Part shown: positions 4,843 to 37,306 of the stretch, in pieces | Position numbering within the stretch: the first letter of the stretch is position 1 | Layout of the letters: every line of letters starts with the position of its first letter | DNA from: Chloroflexota bacterium | Lineage (GTDB): Bacteria; Chloroflexota; Dehalococcoidia; Bin125 | DNA: 37,499 nt | Assembly (NCBI GenBank): GCA_009838735.1 | Contig: VXQZ01000027.1 | Span: 1-37,499, forward strand | Direction of reading: 5' to 3' | Made by a program: the position numbers and the translations under genes | Notes under the pieces: model-generated | The model's database searches: none | What the model was told of the DNA's origin: nothing | What the model saw: only the letters and a program-made list of their open reading frames with translations

Positions 4843-4893
4843 ACGTCGCTTGAATGTCTCGCCCCGGCTAGCGGCGAGACATTCAAGCGACGT
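4843..4893. terminator. Perfect 21-bp inverted repeat between converging genes
   Basis: Bases 4843-4863 are exactly complementary to 4873-4893, with a 9-base loop (CCGGCTAGC). It lies between the aminotransferase stop (4827) and the STAS stop (4920), where a bidirectional terminator would be expected. There is no T-run on either side, so it is not a canonical intrinsic terminator. It is far longer than the other hairpins in the window and shares no sequence with them. Confidence 0.6.
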
Positions 4894-15113: not shown

Positions 15114-15286
15114 GTGGGGCACCTCTCCAAGAAAAGTCCATGCGCAGGTACGAAAATTCCGTCAAGCCCGCGCGATTGCTCTACAGGGGCAATATACGAC
15201 ATGGCGGACGGAACATTCGGCATGTGTACGGGTCAGTTCGTTTCACGTTTTCCCCTCCCGCTCGGCCGCCGTCCCACATTTCCGTC

Positions 15287-15309
15287 ATACCCGCGCTTGC
15301 CGCGGGTAT
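15287..15309. repeat. REP-like hairpin
   Basis: ATACCCGCG CTTGC CGCGGGTAT forms a perfect 9-bp stem with a 5-base loop. It is flanked by CGTC and CTCG, the layout of widespread bacterial CGTCAT-type intergenic hairpins. Only one copy is seen in this window. Confidence 0.6.
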
Positions 15310-15417
15310 CTCGCCGAGACCAGAACGGACCACGCTCCCAGGCAGCACGAGATTGCCGCGCCGAGTACTGCGTTGTCGGGCTGATTGCTGCTTAGTTTTG
15401 GAAGAGGGACCTCTCGC

Positions 15418-17288: not shown

Positions 17289-17329
17289 CCTCAGCCCGTT
17301 CGCTGCCGCGAGTGATACGATCCGACTAC

Positions 17330-18352
17330 ATGACAACCGCCGAGATTTCCAGCCGAGCCACCGACGACGATCCCGAGCCGCCACATAGCGAGGTCCGGCT
17401 CGCCGACGGCCGGACGTTGAGCTGGACCGAGTACGGCGATCCCAGGGGTGAGCCGCTCTTCTTCCATCACGGAATCCCGTCGTCTCGCGTTGCCGCCGCG
17501 GTCATGGATCCCGGCGCCGCTCGCGCCGGTGTGCGCCTGATTGCGCCGGAACGACCAGGATTCGGCTACTCCGACCCGTTGCCGGGCCGCGACATTCTTG
17601 ACTGGCCATCCGACCTGCGCCAGTTGGCCGATTACCTCGAGATTGAAAAATTCTCCGTTGCCGGCATATCGGCCGGGTTGCCGTACACGCTCGCCTGCGC
17701 CCTGAGGATGCCCGAGCGCCTGCATCGCGTCGCCCTCGTGTCCGGCCTGGGGGCAATCGACTCCGGCGAGGTGCTGGAGGGTATGTCCTACGAGTGGCGG
17801 CTGATCTACACCCTGTTCCTCAAGTCGCAACGCCTGGCGTCACTCTGGATGCGGGGCTACGGCCGCTCGGTGCAGAAGCGACCGGACCGCGTCGTGGCCG
17901 AGCAGATCAAGCGGATGCCGCCAGTAGACGGTGCCATCCTTGGCTCGGAGCCGACGCTAACCAATCGAATCACCGACCTGCGAGAAGCTTTCAGGCAGGG
18001 CCCCGCCGCAGCTGGCGACGAAGCCCGCCACCACCTGGAGCCGTGGGGCTTCGAGTTGCGCGATGTCCAGTTCCCGGTCGTGCTCTGGCACGCGATGCTG
18101 GATGAGTCCCATCCCATCCAGATGGGTCGTCGGATCGCCGCCGAACTCCCGGATTGCCGTCCGATCTACGTCGACGGCGTCGGCTCACTCGGATTCATCG
18201 AGCACGCCGAGTCGATCTTCAACGCCCTCTTCAGCGAGGGCCCCAGAGTCCCCAGAACCGTCAACCCCGTCGAAACCACCCCCGTCGACGAAGAAGCCGA
18301 AATCTTCGGCGGCCTCCTCGACGTCCTCCCCGAGCCGGTCGTCGGCGAGTAA
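17330..18352 (+). CDS. Alpha/beta hydrolase with altered catalytic triad
   Basis: A 340-aa alpha/beta hydrolase-fold protein. The oxyanion-hole strand reads LFFHHGIPSSR, followed by PERPGFGYSDP, and the nucleophile elbow is GISAG with S114. The acid residue is plausibly D258 in HAMLDESHP. The catalytic His is normally in GHLGF-like sequence near the end; here the aligned text is GVGSLGFIEH, so Ser286 stands where His is expected, and H292 six residues later is the only nearby His. The enzyme may be inactive or rearranged. Substrate is unknown. ATG 17330 is preferred to an in-frame GTG at 17312; no clear ribosome site is present, so the mRNA may be leaderless (TGATAC lies just upstream). Confidence 0.85.
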   Translation: MTTAEISSRATDDDPEPPHSEVRLADGRTLSWTEYGDPRGEPLFFHHGIPSSRVAAAVMDPGAARAGVRLIAPERPGFGYSDPLPGRDILDWPSDLRQLADYLEIEKFSVAGISAGLPYTLACALRMPERLHRVALVSGLGAIDSGEVLEGMSYEWRLIYTLFLKSQRLASLWMRGYGRSVQKRPDRVVAEQIKRMPPVDGAILGSEPTLTNRITDLREAFRQGPAAAGDEARHHLEPWGFELRDVQFPVVLWHAMLDESHPIQMGRRIAAELPDCRPIYVDGVGSLGFIEHAESIFNALFSEGPRVPRTVNPVETTPVDEEAEIFGGLLDVLPEPVVGE

Positions 18353-18371
18353 AATCGCCCCGTCTCTTCTC

Positions 18372-18403
18372 CGGTTCCCCGCCTCCGAGCGGGGACCAGT
18401 CCC
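18372..18403. repeat. 32-bp repeat D, left copy (inverted pair around GIY-YIG gene)
   Basis: These 32 bases are the exact reverse complement of 18744-18775. The unit contains a 7-bp hairpin, TCCCCGC/GCGGGGA with loop CTCCGA. It ends 4 bases from the stop codon of the GIY-YIG gene. A further short inverted match, CCGTCTC (18360-18366) with GAGACGG (18788-18794), lies outside the pair. Confidence 0.9.
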
Positions 18404-18407
18404 CCGC

Positions 18408-18710
18408 CTACGCCAGTTCGTCCGACAGATCTCTCCATTCAGGATTCTCCGCCTCGATCAATTCATCCTTCCACGCTCGATCCCATCGCTTGAGCCGGTA
18501 ATCCCGCTGCATTGCTGTCGTCACGGACTCATGCTGCTCAAACCAGACGAGCTTACGGATGTTGTAGCGGGCGGTGTGCCGACTCCCTGTTCCGGCCTTG
18601 TGTTGCTCAATCCGATTGGCGAGGTCGGTCGTGGAGCCGACATAGATTGGGCGGCGCCCCGCATCAGGCTTGTAGCCCGCCAGAATGTAGACGTAGGCTT
18701 CTGTGCTCAT
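18408..18710 (-). CDS. GIY-YIG domain nuclease, URI/UPF0213-like, within inverted repeats
   Basis: A 100-aa single-domain GIY-YIG protein. The GIY-YIG core is YVYIL...PIYVGST (Y8, Y23, G25), followed by NRIEQHK with the expected Arg (R33). The family's closing segment A.QREK.LK.W.R..K..LI...NPEW.DL reads AMQRDYRLKRWDRAWKDELIEAENPEWRDL. The catalytic metal-binding Glu is therefore Asp (D70), a conservative change. Members of this class are small endonucleases, some acting site-specifically on single-stranded DNA. The gene lies between perfect 32-bp inverted repeats, 4 bases from its stop and 33 bases before its start. A -10-like TATTAT sits 6 bases before ATG 18710, suggesting leaderless expression. 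Base composition is visibly less GC-rich than in its neighbours, consistent with transfer. Confidence 0.92.
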   Translation of the reverse strand: MSTEAYVYILAGYKPDAGRRPIYVGSTTDLANRIEQHKAGTGSRHTARYNIRKLVWFEQHESVTTAMQRDYRLKRWDRAWKDELIEAENPEWRDLSDELA

Positions 18711-18716
18711 ATGTTC

Positions 18717-18722
18717 ATAATA
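18717..18722 (-). promoter_or_regulatory. -10-like TATTAT just before the GIY-YIG start
   Basis: On the minus strand TATTAT is followed after 6 bases by the ATG, the spacing expected for a leaderless transcript. No matching -35 box is evident. The right repeat D copy lies 21 bases further upstream. Confidence 0.4.
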
Positions 18723-18743
18723 CGTGATCAGCCCAAGTCAGTA

Positions 18744-18775
18744 GGGACTGGTCCCCGCTCGGAGGCGGGGAACCG
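18744..18775. repeat. 32-bp repeat D, right copy
   Basis: Exact inverted copy of 18372-18403, placed 33 bases upstream of the GIY-YIG start codon. The two copies and the gene between them span 404 bases. Confidence 0.9.
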
Positions 18776-18807
18776 AGCAACTGAGTGGAGACGGTTCTGC
18801 TTGTTGC

Positions 18808-19623
18808 TCAGCCCCGCGCCCAGTTGATGCTGTTCTTCAACAGCTGACCGTACTCCGCGGTCTCCCAGGTGAAGCGCAGGGTGCGCGGCATTTCGCCGTC
18901 CGCGTCTCTCGCGTTCTCCTCGACGAACGGCTGCGAGTTCGTTAGCGGCGAGTGGCAGTGGCCCAGGGCGATGTAGCAGACGCCGCCCTCGCCGATCCCG
19001 CGGGTGTAGCCGAAGACTCGCGTGACTCCGTCAGCCTCGAGCGCCGTGTCTTCCTCGTAGTCGAAGCCAAAGTCCGGATAGTTGTCCGGACCGATTGGCG
19101 CCGTCAGCAGGATGTCAGTGTTCGGACGATCCGTGATCTCAATCATGTACGGCTCGTCGATCACATCGAATTGCTCGGGCAATCCCTCGAGGATCGGTGA
19201 ATCGACATTCTTCACGTCGACCGTGAAGCGCTTGATCGGCGGGTGGTTGATGAAGAAGCCGCCCAGCGTCTCGTGGTGCTCCATCTTGACCATCGCGCGC
19301 TTGCCCTCGCCCATGCGGGCCGCCTTGCCGCCCGACGTTCCGTGCAGCCCCACCCAGTGTCCGCCGTTGCCGATCCAGTCGCGCAGGATCTCGTTCTGCG
19401 GGTCGTCCGCATACGGGCCGGCCGTGTAGGTGATCAGCACGTCGGTGACGGGCAGCCACTTCCACATATCGGTGAAGTCGTTACCAGTCGTCGCCCGGAC
19501 ATTGCCGTCGGAATACAGCATGTCGAGCAGCCGCAGGCGGGCAAAGTCCATGTCGTGCCCCCCATGCTGTCCCGGCGGGAATCCACCTGTCACCACATGT
19601 ACGCGAGTCGGTGCACTGGCCAT
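18808..19623 (-). CDS. ThuA-like domain protein
   Basis: A 271-aa protein of the ThuA (trehalose utilisation, PF06283) family, which has a class I glutamine amidotransferase-like fold. Diagnostic parts are VHVVTGGFPPGQHGGHDMDFARLRLLDML at the N-terminus, DVLITYTAGPYADDPQNEILRDWIGNGGHWVGLHGTSGG (the LRDWVxxGGGxVGLHG element), GGFFINHPPIKRFTVDV, and near the end GEGGVCYIALGHCHSPLTNSQPF. ThuA proteins occur in sugar catabolism operons and are often linked to 3-ketoglycoside degradation, but the catalysed step is not certain. GAGG precedes ATG 19623 at a good distance. There is no signal peptide, so a cytoplasmic location is expected. It is a single gene, divergent from the VWA lipoprotein. Confidence 0.88.
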   Translation of the reverse strand: MASAPTRVHVVTGGFPPGQHGGHDMDFARLRLLDMLYSDGNVRATTGNDFTDMWKWLPVTDVLITYTAGPYADDPQNEILRDWIGNGGHWVGLHGTSGGKAARMGEGKRAMVKMEHHETLGGFFINHPPIKRFTVDVKNVDSPILEGLPEQFDVIDEPYMIEITDRPNTDILLTAPIGPDNYPDFGFDYEEDTALEADGVTRVFGYTRGIGEGGVCYIALGHCHSPLTNSQPFVEENARDADGEMPRTLRFTWETAEYGQLLKNSINWARG

Positions 19624-27698: not shown

Positions 27699-28160
27699 AT
27701 GACTAGTGGCCCGGATCGAGCAGAATTTCTCGACGCTCCGTTCTTTCCCGAGGGGATGACGACACCCGATCCCGAAGACCCGATTAATGGCGGCTACTTC
27801 GCCGCCGCTGCTGAGGGGCGTCTGGTTGTCCAGGGCTGTGCTGACTGCGACGTCCGGCAGTATCCGCCGGAACTCAACTGCCACGCCTGCTACTCCTTCG
27901 ACATGGAATGGGAAGAGTCGGCCGGGACCGGAACAGTCTGGTCCTGGGTCGAGGTGGTCCATCCCGCCCATCCCGCCTTGCGCGAATTCGGTCCCTACAT
28001 GGTCGCCCTGGTTGAACTGGACGACATGCCCGAGATCAAGCTGATGGGCGCGGTCGTCGACGCGCCGCTAGGGGGGGTGATGGAGATCGGCGCGCGCGTG
28101 CGAGTGGTGTTTGAACGCACGGCTGACGATCTCGTACAGCCGCGCTGGCGCATGGCATGA
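27699..28160 (+). CDS. DUF35 OB-fold/zinc-ribbon acyl-CoA-associated protein
   Basis: A 153-aa DUF35 protein. The zinc-ribbon has CADCDVRQYPPELNCHAC (C47, C50, C61, C64), followed by an OB-fold domain with GTGTVWSWVEVVHPAHPALREFGPYMVALVEL and the DDMPEIKLMGAVVDAP strand. DUF35 proteins bind acyl-CoA and form complexes with Ltp-type thiolases and aldolases, for example in steroid side-chain cleavage. The thiolase at 25408 is its likely partner, though a divergent gene separates them. Start ATG 27699 follows TACTCT at a distance that suits a leaderless transcript; the frame runs further back but into antisense of the beta-lactamase-like gene. The stop overlaps the next start as ATGA. Confidence 0.9.
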   Translation: MTSGPDRAEFLDAPFFPEGMTTPDPEDPINGGYFAAAAEGRLVVQGCADCDVRQYPPELNCHACYSFDMEWEESAGTGTVWSWVEVVHPAHPALREFGPYMVALVELDDMPEIKLMGAVVDAPLGGVMEIGARVRVVFERTADDLVQPRWRMA

Positions 28161-29887
28161 CCACTCAAGCCTCCGCTGCTCCATCGGCGAGCTCAACGTC
28201 CCGCCGGCGCTGGATAATCCTGCTCGTCCTGGCGGGCAGCCAGATGCTGGTCCAGCTCGATGCGACGATCATCAACACGGCGATGCCCGCGATCAAGCGG
28301 GCCTTCGAGATGTCGGAGGCCCAGTCGCTCTGGGTCGTCGACGCGTACATGGTGATCTTCGGCGGACTGCTCCTATTGGCTGGCGCGTTGGGTGACCGGT
28401 TCGGACGCCGCAAGATCCTGATCGTCGGCATGGGGATCTTCGTCGTCGCTTCCATTGCCATCGCCTTCTCGCCCGACGCCAACTTCATGATCGTCGGACG
28501 CGGCCTGCAGGGACTGGGCGGCGCGCTGGTCATCCCGCAAACGCTGTCGATTTTGACCGCCGTCTTTCCGCGCGAGGAACGAGGCCGCGCGATCGGAATC
28601 TGGGCGGGGGCGATGGGCTTCGGCATGGCCTTCGGCCCGCTGGTCGGCGGCGTGCTCGTCGATCTGATCGGCTGGGCCGGGGTCTTCTGGGTACCGGCTC
28701 CGATCGCGGCGCTGTGCATGTTCGGTATGGCCGCGGTCCCCGAGTCTCGATCGCAGTTGCACACCAAGCTGGATGTGCCGGGAGCGATCACCGGAACGAT
28801 CGCGATGGTCGCGATCGTCTTTGCGATCATCGAGGGTATCCAGAAGGGCTGGACCGACCCGCTGATCGTCGGCTCGTTCGCCGTCGCCATCGTCTCGGCT
28901 CTGATGTTCATCGTCATCGAACGGCGCACGGACCAGCCCTTGCTGCCCATGGCCTTCTTCAAGCAGCGCGACTTCACCGGCTCGATGGTCGGAATGTTCT
29001 TCATCATGTTCGCCCTGATGGGAGTCATGTTCTATCTGCCCCAGTTCTTCCAGCTGGTCCAGGGCATGTCGGCCTCCGAGAGCGGCGCGCGGTTGATGCC
29101 CCTGGCTCTGGCGATGATGTTCTTTGCGCCGGTCGCTGCCAAGTTGTTGCCGAAAATCGGACCGCGCCTGATGCTCTTCTGGGCCCCAGCAGTTCACGGG
29201 GCCGGGGCGCTGTTGATATTCAGCTTCATCCTCGACATCGACACGCCCTACTGGATGATCGGCCTGACGATGGCCTTCCTCGGCATGGGCGGCGCGATGC
29301 ATATGCCCGCCACGACCGACACGGCGATGGCGTCGGTGCCCGTTGACCTGGCCGGCAAGGCGTCGGCGGTCAACAACGCCGGACGCCAACTCGGCGGCAC
29401 GCTGGCGATCGCCATTCTCGGATCGTTCGCCGCGGCCGTGTACTCCTCGGGAGTCAGCGCCGGGCTGGGGCCGCTGGGGCTGCCAGACGAGTCGGTCGAG
29501 ATCCTTGCCACAGGCATCGGGGCCGCGCAGCAGGTATTGCCGACGCTCGACCAGTCACTGCTCATGCCGACCCAATTGGTGCTGCGCGAGTCGTTCGTCG
29601 ATGCGATCACCGACACGATGAGATTCGGAGTCATCTTCGCGCTGATCTCGGGCATCGTTGGCTGGATCCTGGTGCCCAAGCGCCAACGCCAGACGCAAGC
29701 GCAATGGGAAGGCGGCCAGCCGGTCGAACAGCCGTCCGCGCCTGCAGCAATGTCGACGAACGGCGCGAGCGCGAACGGGTTGTCTGCAAATGGCCTGGCC
29801 CCGGCTCCAACAGGGGGGCGACGGGAAGTCGCGCCAAAGGCCAGATCAATGGCGCTCCAACGCCCACAGAAGACGGGCCCGCCATAG
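28157..29887 (+). CDS. DHA2-family drug:H+ antiporter-like MFS exporter, copy 1
   Basis: A 576-aa transporter with about 14 hydrophobic segments, the DHA2 (EmrB/QacA-type) class of the major facilitator superfamily. The first helix has LDATIINTAMPAIKRAFEMSEAQSLWVVDAYMV (motif D1), and the loop 2-3 motif A is GALGDRFGRRKI. Motif C-like glycines occur in IGIWAGAMGFGMAFGPLVGGVLVD. The predicted role is proton-driven export of hydrophobic compounds; the substrate cannot be deduced. The C-terminus has a low-complexity stretch with NGASANGLSANGLAP and ends RSMALQRPQKTGPP. It overlaps the DUF35 gene by four bases (ATGA) and is followed after 75 bases by a paralogue, so the three may be co-transcribed. 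Confidence 0.93.
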   Translation: MTTQASAAPSASSTSRRRWIILLVLAGSQMLVQLDATIINTAMPAIKRAFEMSEAQSLWVVDAYMVIFGGLLLLAGALGDRFGRRKILIVGMGIFVVASIAIAFSPDANFMIVGRGLQGLGGALVIPQTLSILTAVFPREERGRAIGIWAGAMGFGMAFGPLVGGVLVDLIGWAGVFWVPAPIAALCMFGMAAVPESRSQLHTKLDVPGAITGTIAMVAIVFAIIEGIQKGWTDPLIVGSFAVAIVSALMFIVIERRTDQPLLPMAFFKQRDFTGSMVGMFFIMFALMGVMFYLPQFFQLVQGMSASESGARLMPLALAMMFFAPVAAKLLPKIGPRLMLFWAPAVHGAGALLIFSFILDIDTPYWMIGLTMAFLGMGGAMHMPATTDTAMASVPVDLAGKASAVNNAGRQLGGTLAIAILGSFAAAVYSSGVSAGLGPLGLPDESVEILATGIGAAQQVLPTLDQSLLMPTQLVLRESFVDAITDTMRFGVIFALISGIVGWILVPKRQRQTQAQWEGGQPVEQPSAPAAMSTNGASANGLSANGLAPAPTGGRREVAPKARSMALQRPQKTGPP

Positions 29888-29962: not shown

Positions 29963-31654
29963 ATGGTCGTGAATCCCACTGCCGACGGTCATGTCGCATC
30001 GGTTGATGTCAGCCCGCGACGGCGCTGGTTGACCCTGTTCGTCCTGGCCGGCGCGCAAGCGATCGTCATGCTCGATGCGACGATCGTCAACACGGCGCTG
30101 CCGACCCTCAAGCGCCACTTCGAAATGACCGAGTCGCAGTCCCTCTGGGTGGTGGACGCCTACCTGGTTTTCTTTGGCGGTCTGTTGCTGCTTTCCGGAG
30201 CGCTCGGTGACCGCTTCGGCCGTCGCCGGATGCTGATGCTCGGGCTCGTCGTCTTCACCGCGGCGTCGATCGGGGTCGCCTTCTCGACCACTGCCGAAAT
30301 GCTCATCGTCGGCCGAGGGTTGCAGGGCGTCGGCGGCGCGATGGTCCTACCCCAGGGCCTGTCCACGCTCACGGCAGTGTTCCCGCGCAAGGATCGCAGC
30401 AAGGCGTTCGGCATCTACATGGGTTCGATGGGCATCGGCATGGCCCTCGGTCCGTTCCTCGGCGGAACACTGGTTGATCAAATCAGCTGGTCGGCCGTCT
30501 TCTGGGTGCCGGCGCCGGTTGCCGCGTTGTCGCTGGTTGGACTCACCCTGGTCCCGGCGACCAGGTCGCTGCAGCACACGAGACTCGACGTGCCCGGCGC
30601 GGTGACGGGCACCATCGGCATGGTCGCGCTGGTCTTTTCGATCATTGAGGGCATTCCGCGCGGCTGGGGTGATCCGGTCATTGTCGGCACGATCACCACT
30701 GCTGTGATTGCCCTCACGGTGTTCATCCTGATTGAGCGGCGGGCCAAGCAGCCGCTGTTGCCGTTGGGCTTCTTCAAACAACGAGACTTCGTCGGCGCCA
30801 TGGTTGGCATGTTCTTCATCATGTTCGCGCTAATGGGGCTGCTCTTCTATCTGCCCCAGTTCTTCCAGCTCGTGCAGGGCGTATCGGCTGCCGAAAGCGG
30901 GCTCCGGGTGATGCCGCTGGCGTTGGTGATGATCATCTGCGCGCCGATCGCAGGATTCATCCTGCCCAAGATCGGACCCCGCTTCCTGCTCTTCTGGGCG
31001 CCGACCATACACGGAGGCGGCTGTCTGCTCCTGCTTGGCCTGGTCCTGGCAGTCGACACGCCCTACTGGATCATCGGCCTGGCGCTGGCCTGGTTGGGCA
31101 TCGGCGGGTCATTGCACATGCCGGCCACGACCGATACCTCGATGGCCGCCGTCCCGGTCGACATGGCAGGCAAAGCCTCGGCCGTGACCACCACCGGCCA
31201 GGAGCTGGGCGGCACGATGGCGATCGCCATCCTCGGCAGCTTTGCCGCAGTCATGTACGCCTCCGGAGTCCGAGACGGCCTCAGTGATCTGCCGCTCTCG
31301 ACTGCCGAGGTGGATGTCATGGCGTCGGGGATCGGCGCGGCCTATCACCTGCTCCCCGGCCTCGACCCCGGCGTCGTCGGAGAGGTGCAAAGCACGCTGA
31401 CCGACTCCTTCGTCCAGGCGATCAAGCGGACCTTCCTCTTCGGCATCACCTTCGCCGTCATCGCCGGAGTCGTCGGCTGGTTCCTCGTGCCCCGCCGCCA
31501 GCGCCAGGTCCAGGCAACCTCCCTCGACACACCGGCGAGCGTCTCTGCGACGACCCCATCTACGTTCGAAGACTCGCCAAACGGCGCCGGCCCGCTTGGA
31601 TTGGCCGCCCGCAATATGGCATCGGTCAGACCCCAGAAGACCGGATTGCCGTGA
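29963..31654 (+). CDS. DHA2-family MFS exporter, copy 2 (tandem paralogue)
   Basis: A 563-aa, 14-helix DHA2 exporter closely related to the preceding gene. The opening RRRWLTLFVLAGAQAIVMLDATIVNTALPTLKRHFEMTESQSLWVVDAYLVFFGGLLLLSGALGDRFGRRRM parallels copy 1 nearly residue for residue, with motif A GALGDRFGRR. Identity is high through the helices and low in the C-terminal linker, yet the final residues (ARNMASVRPQKTGLP) again match copy 1. It is a tandem duplication product, probably with a different substrate range. Start is ATG 29963 or GTG 29969; GGCGGAG is better spaced from the GTG. The stop overlaps the lipoprotein start (GTGA). Confidence 0.92.
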   Translation: MVVNPTADGHVASVDVSPRRRWLTLFVLAGAQAIVMLDATIVNTALPTLKRHFEMTESQSLWVVDAYLVFFGGLLLLSGALGDRFGRRRMLMLGLVVFTAASIGVAFSTTAEMLIVGRGLQGVGGAMVLPQGLSTLTAVFPRKDRSKAFGIYMGSMGIGMALGPFLGGTLVDQISWSAVFWVPAPVAALSLVGLTLVPATRSLQHTRLDVPGAVTGTIGMVALVFSIIEGIPRGWGDPVIVGTITTAVIALTVFILIERRAKQPLLPLGFFKQRDFVGAMVGMFFIMFALMGLLFYLPQFFQLVQGVSAAESGLRVMPLALVMIICAPIAGFILPKIGPRFLLFWAPTIHGGGCLLLLGLVLAVDTPYWIIGLALAWLGIGGSLHMPATTDTSMAAVPVDMAGKASAVTTTGQELGGTMAIAILGSFAAVMYASGVRDGLSDLPLSTAEVDVMASGIGAAYHLLPGLDPGVVGEVQSTLTDSFVQAIKRTFLFGITFAVIAGVVGWFLVPRRQRQVQATSLDTPASVSATTPSTFEDSPNGAGPLGLAARNMASVRPQKTGLP

Positions 31655-34798: not shown

Positions 34799-37306
34799 GT
34801 GCCTGACACAACACCGGTTCCGGCCTACGAGGGCCTGGTCGTCGTCGATCTCTCCCGACGCATGTCGGGCGCCTTTGCCGCCCGCCTCTTCGCCGATCAC
34901 GGCGCCGATGTCATCATGCTGGAACCGCCCGATGGTCATCCGCTCCGGCATGAAGCTCCGTTCCTCAACGACGTTCCGGGCCCCGAGCGCTCCGCCCTGC
35001 ATGCCTACGTCAACTGGAACAAACGCTCCGTCGCGATCAGCGAGCCCTCCGACGCTCAAGCCTGGATCACCGTCGCAGACGTCGTCATCACCACGGACGG
35101 ATCGGACAAGCTGCCGAGTTGGCCCCTCGACGACATGCGACCGGACGCTGTCCATCTCTCCGTCACGCCGCACGGACTCGAGGGCCCGTTGGCCGACGCC
35201 CCGGGCAGCAACCTGACCCTCAACGCCCGCTGTGGCTGGGCCTACGTGAACGCCCTCCGCGATGAGTCTCCCCTGACCCTGCCCTCGCGACAGTTCGGCT
35301 ACATGGGCGGCCTCGCCGGCTTCGTCGCCGGATCCGCAGCGTTGCGTCGCCGCTTCGAGTCCAACTCGCCCGAACGCGTCGACGTCCGCGAGCTCGAAGC
35401 CATGACCCACACGGTCTACCCCTGGTCGATCGGCGCGATCTACCAGGGAACCGGATGGTCGCGCGGCGCGACCGGCGGTCGCCCGCGAGGCGAACCGGGA
35501 CCGCTCTGGGACGCGGCCGACGGGCGGATCAACTTCGGCTTCGGCGACTGGCACAACTGGCGCGAAGCAATGGACCTCTTCAATCTCCCCGAGCAGGGAG
35601 CGCGTGAAGACCTGCAAGCCCGCAACGCCCGCTACTCCAAGGATCTGTCCGCCGTGATGGCCGGAGTCGCGCGCGAGCTGCCCAGCATGGAGAAGTGGCC
35701 CCTGTTCCACAAACTGGCCCGGCTGCGCTGCATTTCGGGCGTGATGCAGACGATTCCCGAACTCGTCGAGAACGAGCAGTTCGACGCGCGAGGCTTCATC
35801 GTCGAAACCGAACTGGACGGCAACTCGGTGCGCGCTTCGGGCGATCCGCATCCAATGTCGCCGCCGAGTTGGTCGCTGAAATCACCGGCCCCAAAGCTGA
35901 ACGCCGTCTCATCTAATCAGCCTTCCTCTCCGTTGCCCGATGAAATCTCTCCACGTTCCCGTGAGAGTGATAGCAAGGTCTTTTCTCCCCCCGCGAAGCG
36001 GGGGGAGATGCCGAAGGCAGAGGGGGGTTCCCGCTCCCTGAGCGGCCCCCTCGACGGCGTCCGCGTCCTCACCTTCACCCAGGCCTGGAGCGGCACATTC
36101 GCGACAGAACTGCTGGCATTCCTCGGTGCCGACGTGGTCCAGATTGAAGCCTTGCGACGCGTCGACATCTGGCGGCTGCTTCGACCCTGGGTGCCCGACG
36201 CGATTCGCGACGACTCGAAGACGCAACACCCGGTCAACCTCCAGGGCGTCTACAACGCGGTCAACCTGAACAAGCGCGGGATTACGCTCGACCTCAGCAC
36301 CGACGAGGGCAAGGACATCTTCTGGCGGATGATGCCCAACTTCGACGTCATTTGCGAGAATTTCCGCCCCGGCGTCCTCGACGGCTGGGGCATCACCCTC
36401 GAGTCGCTGGCCGAGAAGCGTTCCGACGTCATCCTCGCCTCGATCTCCGGCTACGGCGTCACCGGACCGTTTTCCTCCTACCCCGCGAACGGCGCCACCA
36501 CCGAGCCGATGTCCGGACTCTCGTCAATCCACGGATACGAAGGCGATCCGGGCATGAACACCGGCGGACTGTTCCCGGACTCCATCTCCGGCTACTCGAT
36601 GACCGCCGCCATCATCGCCGCCCTGGCCCGGCGAGAGCGCGTAAACGGACCCCAGCGGATCGATGTCGCCATGCTCGAGGCCATGGGCGTAGTCGTCGGC
36701 GACGCGATCGCCGAGTTCGACGCCACCGGACGAATGCCGGTCCCAATCGGAAATCGCGACCGTCAGATGGCCCCGCACAACATCTACCCCTGCGCCGGTG
36801 AGGATGAGTGGATCGCCATCTCGGTCGCAACCGAGTCCGAGTGGCGCACACTCTGTCAGGAACTGGGCCTGGCCGGATTGGTGGATGATCCCCGGTTCTC
36901 GACCGCTGCGCTGCGCAAGAGCAATGAGGGCGACCTGGACGAGATCATCACCGCCTGGACTTCCGATCAGGAGTCGGATGCGCTCGAACAGCGCCTGCTC
37001 GCGGCCGGCCTGGACGCGGCTCGGGTCTCCCGGCCCTACGACCAGTTCTCCGACCCCGATCCGACCTACCTGTCCAGTGGATTCATCCAGTCGGTCGACC
37101 ATCCCGAGGTCGGCGAATCGTGGCTGCCCGGCGCGCCCTGGCGACTGAGCGGGCCGGAAGATCGCCAACTCAGGCCCTCGCCCTGCGTCGGCGAGCACTC
37201 GTTCGAGGTCTTTGCCCAGGAACTGGGCATGACCCAGGCCGAATACCAATCCCTGGTCGAGCGAGGAATCAGCGGAACCATGGACGACGTCGCCGCCTCA
37301 GGCTAG
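34799..37306 (+). CDS. Tandem two-domain CaiB/BaiF family CoA-transferase
   Basis: An 835-aa protein made of two complete class III CoA-transferase domains in tandem, about residues 1-380 and 418-835. Each begins with a strand and helix of the family (YEGLVVVDLSRRMSGAFAARLFADHGADVIMLE; LDGVRVLTFTQAWSGTFATELLAFLGADVVQIE). The catalytic Asp that forms the acyl-aspartyl anhydride is present in domain 2 (D594 in GLFPDSISGY). In domain 1 the aligned residues are PSRQFGY, with S163 or R164 at that place, so domain 1 is probably a structural partner. Family enzymes transfer CoA between acyl donors and acids and normally form interlinked dimers, which a fusion could mimic. Residues 395-412 of the linker are encoded by hairpin repeat A copy 5. 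The start is GTG 34799 after GAGGGA. A frame-intact double gene is rare but known. Confidence 0.9.
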   Translation: MPDTTPVPAYEGLVVVDLSRRMSGAFAARLFADHGADVIMLEPPDGHPLRHEAPFLNDVPGPERSALHAYVNWNKRSVAISEPSDAQAWITVADVVITTDGSDKLPSWPLDDMRPDAVHLSVTPHGLEGPLADAPGSNLTLNARCGWAYVNALRDESPLTLPSRQFGYMGGLAGFVAGSAALRRRFESNSPERVDVRELEAMTHTVYPWSIGAIYQGTGWSRGATGGRPRGEPGPLWDAADGRINFGFGDWHNWREAMDLFNLPEQGAREDLQARNARYSKDLSAVMAGVARELPSMEKWPLFHKLARLRCISGVMQTIPELVENEQFDARGFIVETELDGNSVRASGDPHPMSPPSWSLKSPAPKLNAVSSNQPSSPLPDEISPRSRESDSKVFSPPAKRGEMPKAEGGSRSLSGPLDGVRVLTFTQAWSGTFATELLAFLGADVVQIEALRRVDIWRLLRPWVPDAIRDDSKTQHPVNLQGVYNAVNLNKRGITLDLSTDEGKDIFWRMMPNFDVICENFRPGVLDGWGITLESLAEKRSDVILASISGYGVTGPFSSYPANGATTEPMSGLSSIHGYEGDPGMNTGGLFPDSISGYSMTAAIIAALARRERVNGPQRIDVAMLEAMGVVVGDAIAEFDATGRMPVPIGNRDRQMAPHNIYPCAGEDEWIAISVATESEWRTLCQELGLAGLVDDPRFSTAALRKSNEGDLDEIITAWTSDQESDALEQRLLAAGLDAARVSRPYDQFSDPDPTYLSSGFIQSVDHPEVGESWLPGAPWRLSGPEDRQLRPSPCVGEHSFEVFAQELGMTQAEYQSLVERGISGTMDDVAASG
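35985..36030. repeat. Hairpin repeat, family A copy 5, inside the CoA-transferase gene
   Basis: A perfect 10-bp stem at 35985-35994/35998-36007 with loop GAA, identical in its first 23 bases to 1938-1960, then TGCC GAA GGCA (36009-36019) and a G-run with GGTTCCC. It is translated in frame as FSPPAKRGEMPKAEGGSR in the linker between the two domains. Confidence 0.9.

Follow-up and report, generated by a model that had tools for sequence, protein, structure and literature searches.

A small GIY-YIG nuclease gene boxed by inverted REP hairpins in a Chloroflexota genome, and the linkage of its homologues to such repeats

Organisation of the locus

The window, by which we mean the whole stretch of 37,499 nucleotides that was analysed (Chloroflexota contig VXQZ01000027.1), contains a small GIY-YIG nuclease gene set between two hairpin repeats, the whole lying between genes for an alpha/beta hydrolase and a ThuA-like protein (Table 1). 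No other small GIY-YIG gene was found in this genome, the two further matches being in longer frames.

Table 1. Position of the REP-gene-REP unit and of associated features in the window
Feature	Position	Strand	Remarks
GIY-YIG nuclease gene	18408..18710	-	100 aa, starts MSTEAYVYILAG; Pfam PF01541, E 3.3e-12
Left arm, hairpin repeat (REP)	18372..18403	+	Just 3' of the stop codon; tag end outward from the gene
Right arm, exact inverted copy	18744..18775	-	5' of the start codon; tag end outward from the gene
REP-gene-REP unit	18372..18775	.	404 bp; intergenic region 18353-18807, 455 nt
Left neighbour, alpha/beta hydrolase	17312..18352	+	Convergent; Pfam; conserved as neighbour in relatives
Right neighbour, ThuA-like protein	18808..19623	-	Pfam; conserved in the relatives searched, hydrolase adjacent in most
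Second CGTC-tagged REP family, copy of CGTCATACCCGCGCTTGCCGCGGGTATC	15283..15310	+	33 copies in own genome

An earlier sequence-only reading of this DNA had described two exact inverted arms of 32 nt, and these were recovered with 100% complementarity and 340 nt between them, 4 nt from the stop codon on the left and 33 nt from the start codon on the right. Each arm can, as that reading held, form a hairpin of its own (TCCCCGC-CTCCGA-GCGGGGA; in the left arm, stem 18376-18382/18389-18395 with loop 18383-18388), and the gene is indeed more AT-rich than its neighbours, with a G+C content of 58.1% against 65.7% and 63.5%. When extra flanking DNA was included, the minimum-energy DNA fold of the left arm took a different pairing (z -1.6), while a z of -2.3 was obtained for the right arm. 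The outer extension of the inversion comes down to a short CCGTCTC match, which may be a product of chance. Perfect inverted matches reached at most 14 nt in all composition shuffles of the 1.6-kb region, and a chance palindrome was rejected as a reading of the arms. Two further candidates were discarded: an RNA family, the window having yielded no Rfam family, and a phage origin of the unit, phage records being without a homologue of the nuclease.

The window holds several other repeats. These comprise a perfect 21-bp hairpin with a 9-nt loop at 4843-4893 (ACGTCGCTTGAATGTCTCGCC/GGCGAGACATTCAAGCGACGT), four copies of a 39-nt hairpin repeat of CCCTCTCCCTGAGGGAGAGGGTTGGGGTGAGGG type belonging to another dispersed family (13671, 17245, 25364 and 37422), two identical 28-nt hairpins at 1936-1963 and 35983-36010 (TTCTCCCCCCGCGAAGCGGGGGGAGATG), and a 44-nt repeat, 98% alike in its two copies, near both contig ends (152-195 and 37360-37403) with REP-like hairpins inside. 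Tandem membrane-transporter-like genes at 28157-29887 and 29963-31654 share 72-78% DNA identity over long stretches. The CGTCATACCCGCGCTTGCCGCGGGTATC family listed in Table 1 boxes other GIY-YIG genes in two relatives, G014 and G012.

Linkage of GIY-YIG genes to inverted repeats

Homologues were gathered from the genus, the class and other phyla, and 129 genes with both flanks were scored, an inverted repeat being called at a score of 18 or more across the gene. Such repeats were present at 44 of the 129 small GIY-YIG genes as against 2 of 170 other ORFs from the same loci (Fisher P 3e-16, a value that overstates certainty, related genes being non-independent) and 11 of 638 mismatched flank pairs. 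At this score the inverted pair was not detected for about two thirds of the 129 homologues. Boxed genes were found in Chloroflexota, Proteobacteria and a Verrucomicrobium. Genes with an outward-pointing tagged hairpin on each side numbered 23/122, against 1/155 control ORFs; in repeat-flanked genes the nearest copies were, with few exceptions, oriented '>' upstream and '<' downstream, which is the tags-outside pairing defined for CGTC REPs (PMC3733652). On the tree, the inverted-repeat label was scattered and required 26 or more changes; it was also clustered, none of 500 shuffles giving so low a number.

An independent set from a plasmid collection gave an inverted-repeat score of at least 22 at 10 of 15 loci, including those of Azospirillum lipoferum 4B, Novosphingobium aromaticivorans and Neisseria gonorrhoeae. 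Two of the collection's loci, L266 and L269 (PLSDB NZ_CP119140.1 and NZ_AP026896.1), belong to Neisseria and Aeromonas records that are listed as plasmids but have the size of a chromosome. The association of this clade with such repeats, raised beforehand as a prediction, has been borne out in several phyla and in the independent set; the boxed architecture and the link of the family to repeats are nearly certain.

Repeat families and their nucleases

The exact 32-mer occurs twice in its own genome, both times at the window locus. The expectation of further copies in the genome consequently failed for the exact sequence and held for diverged ones. The family consensus, CCGTCCCCGCCNCCGAGCGGGGACC, is dispersed through the genus: with up to three mismatches, copies were found in 13 of 20 genomes of the family, with six copies in the window's own genome and 27 in G001, and the reversed pattern returned none in the 20 genomes. 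Its consensus tag in the genus is CCGTC, of which GTC is able to pair; the window arms carry CGGT, a degenerate tag. A hairpin with an unpaired CGTC-like tag and a short tail was seen in most related units, and most arms have the form [CT]GTC, a stem of 7-9 bp, a loop of 4-6 nt and a CCA-like tail. Going by these sequence features, most arms of boxed genes are CGTC-tagged REPs (PMC3733652), and the window family shares the dispersed, multi-copy character of that superfamily (13/20 genomes). In G001 a MITE-like element of approximately 143 bp (L206-L212) is bounded by window-type REPs, the REP pairs being held at a constant spacing of 118 nt with conserved edges and a variable middle.

Different nucleases carry different repeat types, and within the genus the closest proteins mostly share one repeat (L039/L040, L035/L042, L031/L041 and window/G014). 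Similarity between proteins was correlated with similarity between repeats both in the genus (Mantel r 0.43; 16/5000 permutations) and over 38 genes (Mantel r 0.36; 1/5000 permutations), a match that is only partly independent because some pairs are orthologous loci. The strongest case is the repeat CGTCATTCCAGCTTGTCTGGAATC, with 181 copies in G006, 12 in G004 and none in 18 other genomes: G006 is the only genome with a matching nuclease, and its GIY-YIG gene is boxed by CGTCATTCCAGCTTGTCTGGAATC. This gene (L034, G006:C113:13526-13804), boxed by the 181-copy repeat, contains an in-frame TGA and is either a pseudogene or affected by a sequencing error. Copy number does not track nuclease presence in two families, the window type, whose 27 copies in G001 occur without the matching nuclease, and the CGTCATACCC type, of which G015 has 189 copies.

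Presence, absence and movement of units

Comparison of empty sites, as had been proposed, showed that the unit is polymorphic. The gap between the thuA-like and hydrolase genes is 3-4 nt in G012 and G013 as opposed to 455 nt in the window, and among relatives with both neighbours only the window genome and G014 have a unit at this site; in other relatives the gap holds other REP clusters. DNA identity between the window and G014 is 66% for the GIY-YIG gene and 91% for both neighbours, and the DNA outside the arms differs. This contrast would reflect two independent insertions or, alternatively, a unit that changes very fast.

Related units were also found at unrelated sites. Those of L039 and L040, which occupy unrelated sites, agree at 80% over a stretch of 365 bp that takes in the left REP, with both REPs matching, and the flanks of L039, when joined, have a match in its own genome as an empty site. 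L035 and L042 have common flanks around a unit that is inverted, an arrangement that recombination between the arms would also explain, and L044 and L045 have their upstream flank in common. In Azospirillum lipoferum 4B the unit has sufB on one side and sufC on the other, and three other Azospirillum are without it. No exact junction or target-site duplication was found at the three sites searched; the insertion junction is not readable because the intergenic DNA has diverged. Judging from these comparisons, units are likely to have moved.

The protein

The AlphaFold model of the window protein (pLDDT 90) has its best PDB match in 1zg2 (UPF0213), followed by Slx1. Residues Y8, Y23, R33, H37 and N89 are conserved in the alignment. 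At position 70, which by analogy with Slx1 would be that of the catalytic glutamate, the window protein has D where aligned relatives almost always have E. The gene also sits on a long branch of the tree, and its repeats are few in dispersed copies; together with D70, these features suggest that the window copy may be weakened.

The protein consists of a small GIY-YIG domain standing alone and belongs to the clade of a Neisseria protein, which we take to be Ssn. It shares 39 of 89 residues with the N. gonorrhoeae homologue in local alignment (46% in the multiple alignment), and the two fall within a 43-row set with SH-aLRT 95. The N. gonorrhoeae homologue can be aligned over most of its length and lies among repeats of dRS3/CGTC-1 type, dRS3 of Neisseria being CGTC-1 in the scheme of PMC3733652.

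Interpretation of the unit

The idea of a nuclease/repeat system, first put forward from the letters of the DNA, is supported by the linkage of homologues to repeats, the polymorphism of the unit at its site and the related units elsewhere. With moderate confidence, we regard the locus as a mobile or formerly mobile unit whose nuclease recognises its own REP, cuts, and spreads its repeat family. Such a unit would be a REP pair with the nuclease gene in the spacer and the tags facing outward. The protein would most likely recognise its cognate hairpin when single-stranded and cut near the tag, after which REPs, REP pairs or the entire unit could be copied or moved to other intergenic positions by host repair or recombination; each nuclease lineage would thereby spread and maintain its own repeat family. 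GIY-YIG enzymes hydrolyse DNA without the covalent intermediate of the known REP transposases, and movement would therefore need host repair. The repeat is a likely target of the nuclease; we infer that the protein binds and cleaves it and may be the cause of the movement.

The nuclease might instead be a resident, Ssn-like enzyme serving the host, its repeats being cut sites that tune DNA uptake or recombination, with the unit immobile and the repeats spread by other means. Ssn of Neisseria cuts single-stranded repeats and reportedly modulates transformation, the 46%-identical N. gonorrhoeae homologue lies among dRS3/CGTC-1 repeats, and some units stay put, as the upstream flank common to L044 and L045 indicates. 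A mobile unit nevertheless accounts better for the occurrence of units at unrelated sites, for the empty sites and for the one inverted unit, and we consider a purely resident role unlikely. That the repeats were moved by a RAYT or another transposase, with the GIY-YIG gene a passenger between REPs, is improbable: RAYTs are credited with moving GTAG REPs, which are structurally similar (PMC3733652, PMC2817692), but the 2013 survey reports that CGTC REPs do not flank any tyrosine transposase gene (PMC3733652), and the genes boxed here are GIY-YIG genes, with repeat types matched across phyla. It is very improbable that the REPs are common intergenic terminator or mRNA-stability hairpins paired by chance around a small gene between convergent genes, since, although REPs lie preferentially between genes that are convergent or co-directed (PMC3733652) and the thuA/hydrolase gap carries other REP clusters in other relatives, inverted pairs were found at only 2/170 and outward pairs at 1/155 control ORFs, and inverted repeats at 11/638 mismatched flanks.

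A wider role for the clade can be put forward, tentatively and with more doubt than confidence: across bacterial phyla, its members could serve as mobilisers dedicated to the CGTC REP superfamily, in a transposition system in which a hydrolytic nuclease and host repair replace the HUH transposase and nuclease and hairpin co-evolve. Whether any enzyme spreads CGTC REPs, and which, was left undecided by the 2013 survey (PMC3733652). Here a specific nuclease clade is tied to them in several phyla; nuclease and repeat form matched pairs, the units have probably moved, and the results point to the enzyme that the class was said to lack. The spread of CGTC REPs is therefore open to direct test, each pair offering a candidate sequence-specific single-strand nuclease together with its predicted target.

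Comparison with known systems

UPF0213/URI proteins and Slx1 are not known to be associated with repeats. UPF0213/URI GIY-YIG proteins (PDB 1zg2) and Slx1 provide the closest solved structures, to which sequence similarity is weak. The architecture of one protein gene flanked by its own REPs, and the existence of non-autonomous REP pairs, recall RAYTs, REPtrons and REPINs (PMC2817692, PMC3116915); the protein here is, however, a GIY-YIG nuclease and not an HUH/Y1 transposase. A REPtron has an HUH/Y1 tyrosine transposase between its REPs, and the only gene in the present unit is that of the GIY-YIG protein.

The CGTC REPs of PMC3733652 resemble most arms of the boxed genes in their outer CGTC-like tag, stem, loop, CCA-like tail and tags-outside (HH) dimers; their pairs mostly carry the tags outside, no associated transposase gene was found for them in the 2013 survey, and Chloroflexi are not among their listed hosts. 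In contrast, the repeats described here are linked to a nuclease and occur in Chloroflexota, and the window's own tag is degenerate (CGGT).

With Ssn/NTS the units share a small stand-alone GIY-YIG protein and dispersed repeats beside its gene. A 2025 paper reportedly describes Ssn as GIY-YIG single-strand nucleases that cut the NTS repeat in Neisseria and that have many homologues differing in specificity. The present case differs in its host phylum, Chloroflexota, in the compact REP-gene-REP units with outward tags and putative cleavage, and in having several repeat families per genus as well as presence and absence of units. Ssn already pairs such proteins with repeats, and the unit in the window would be a further case.
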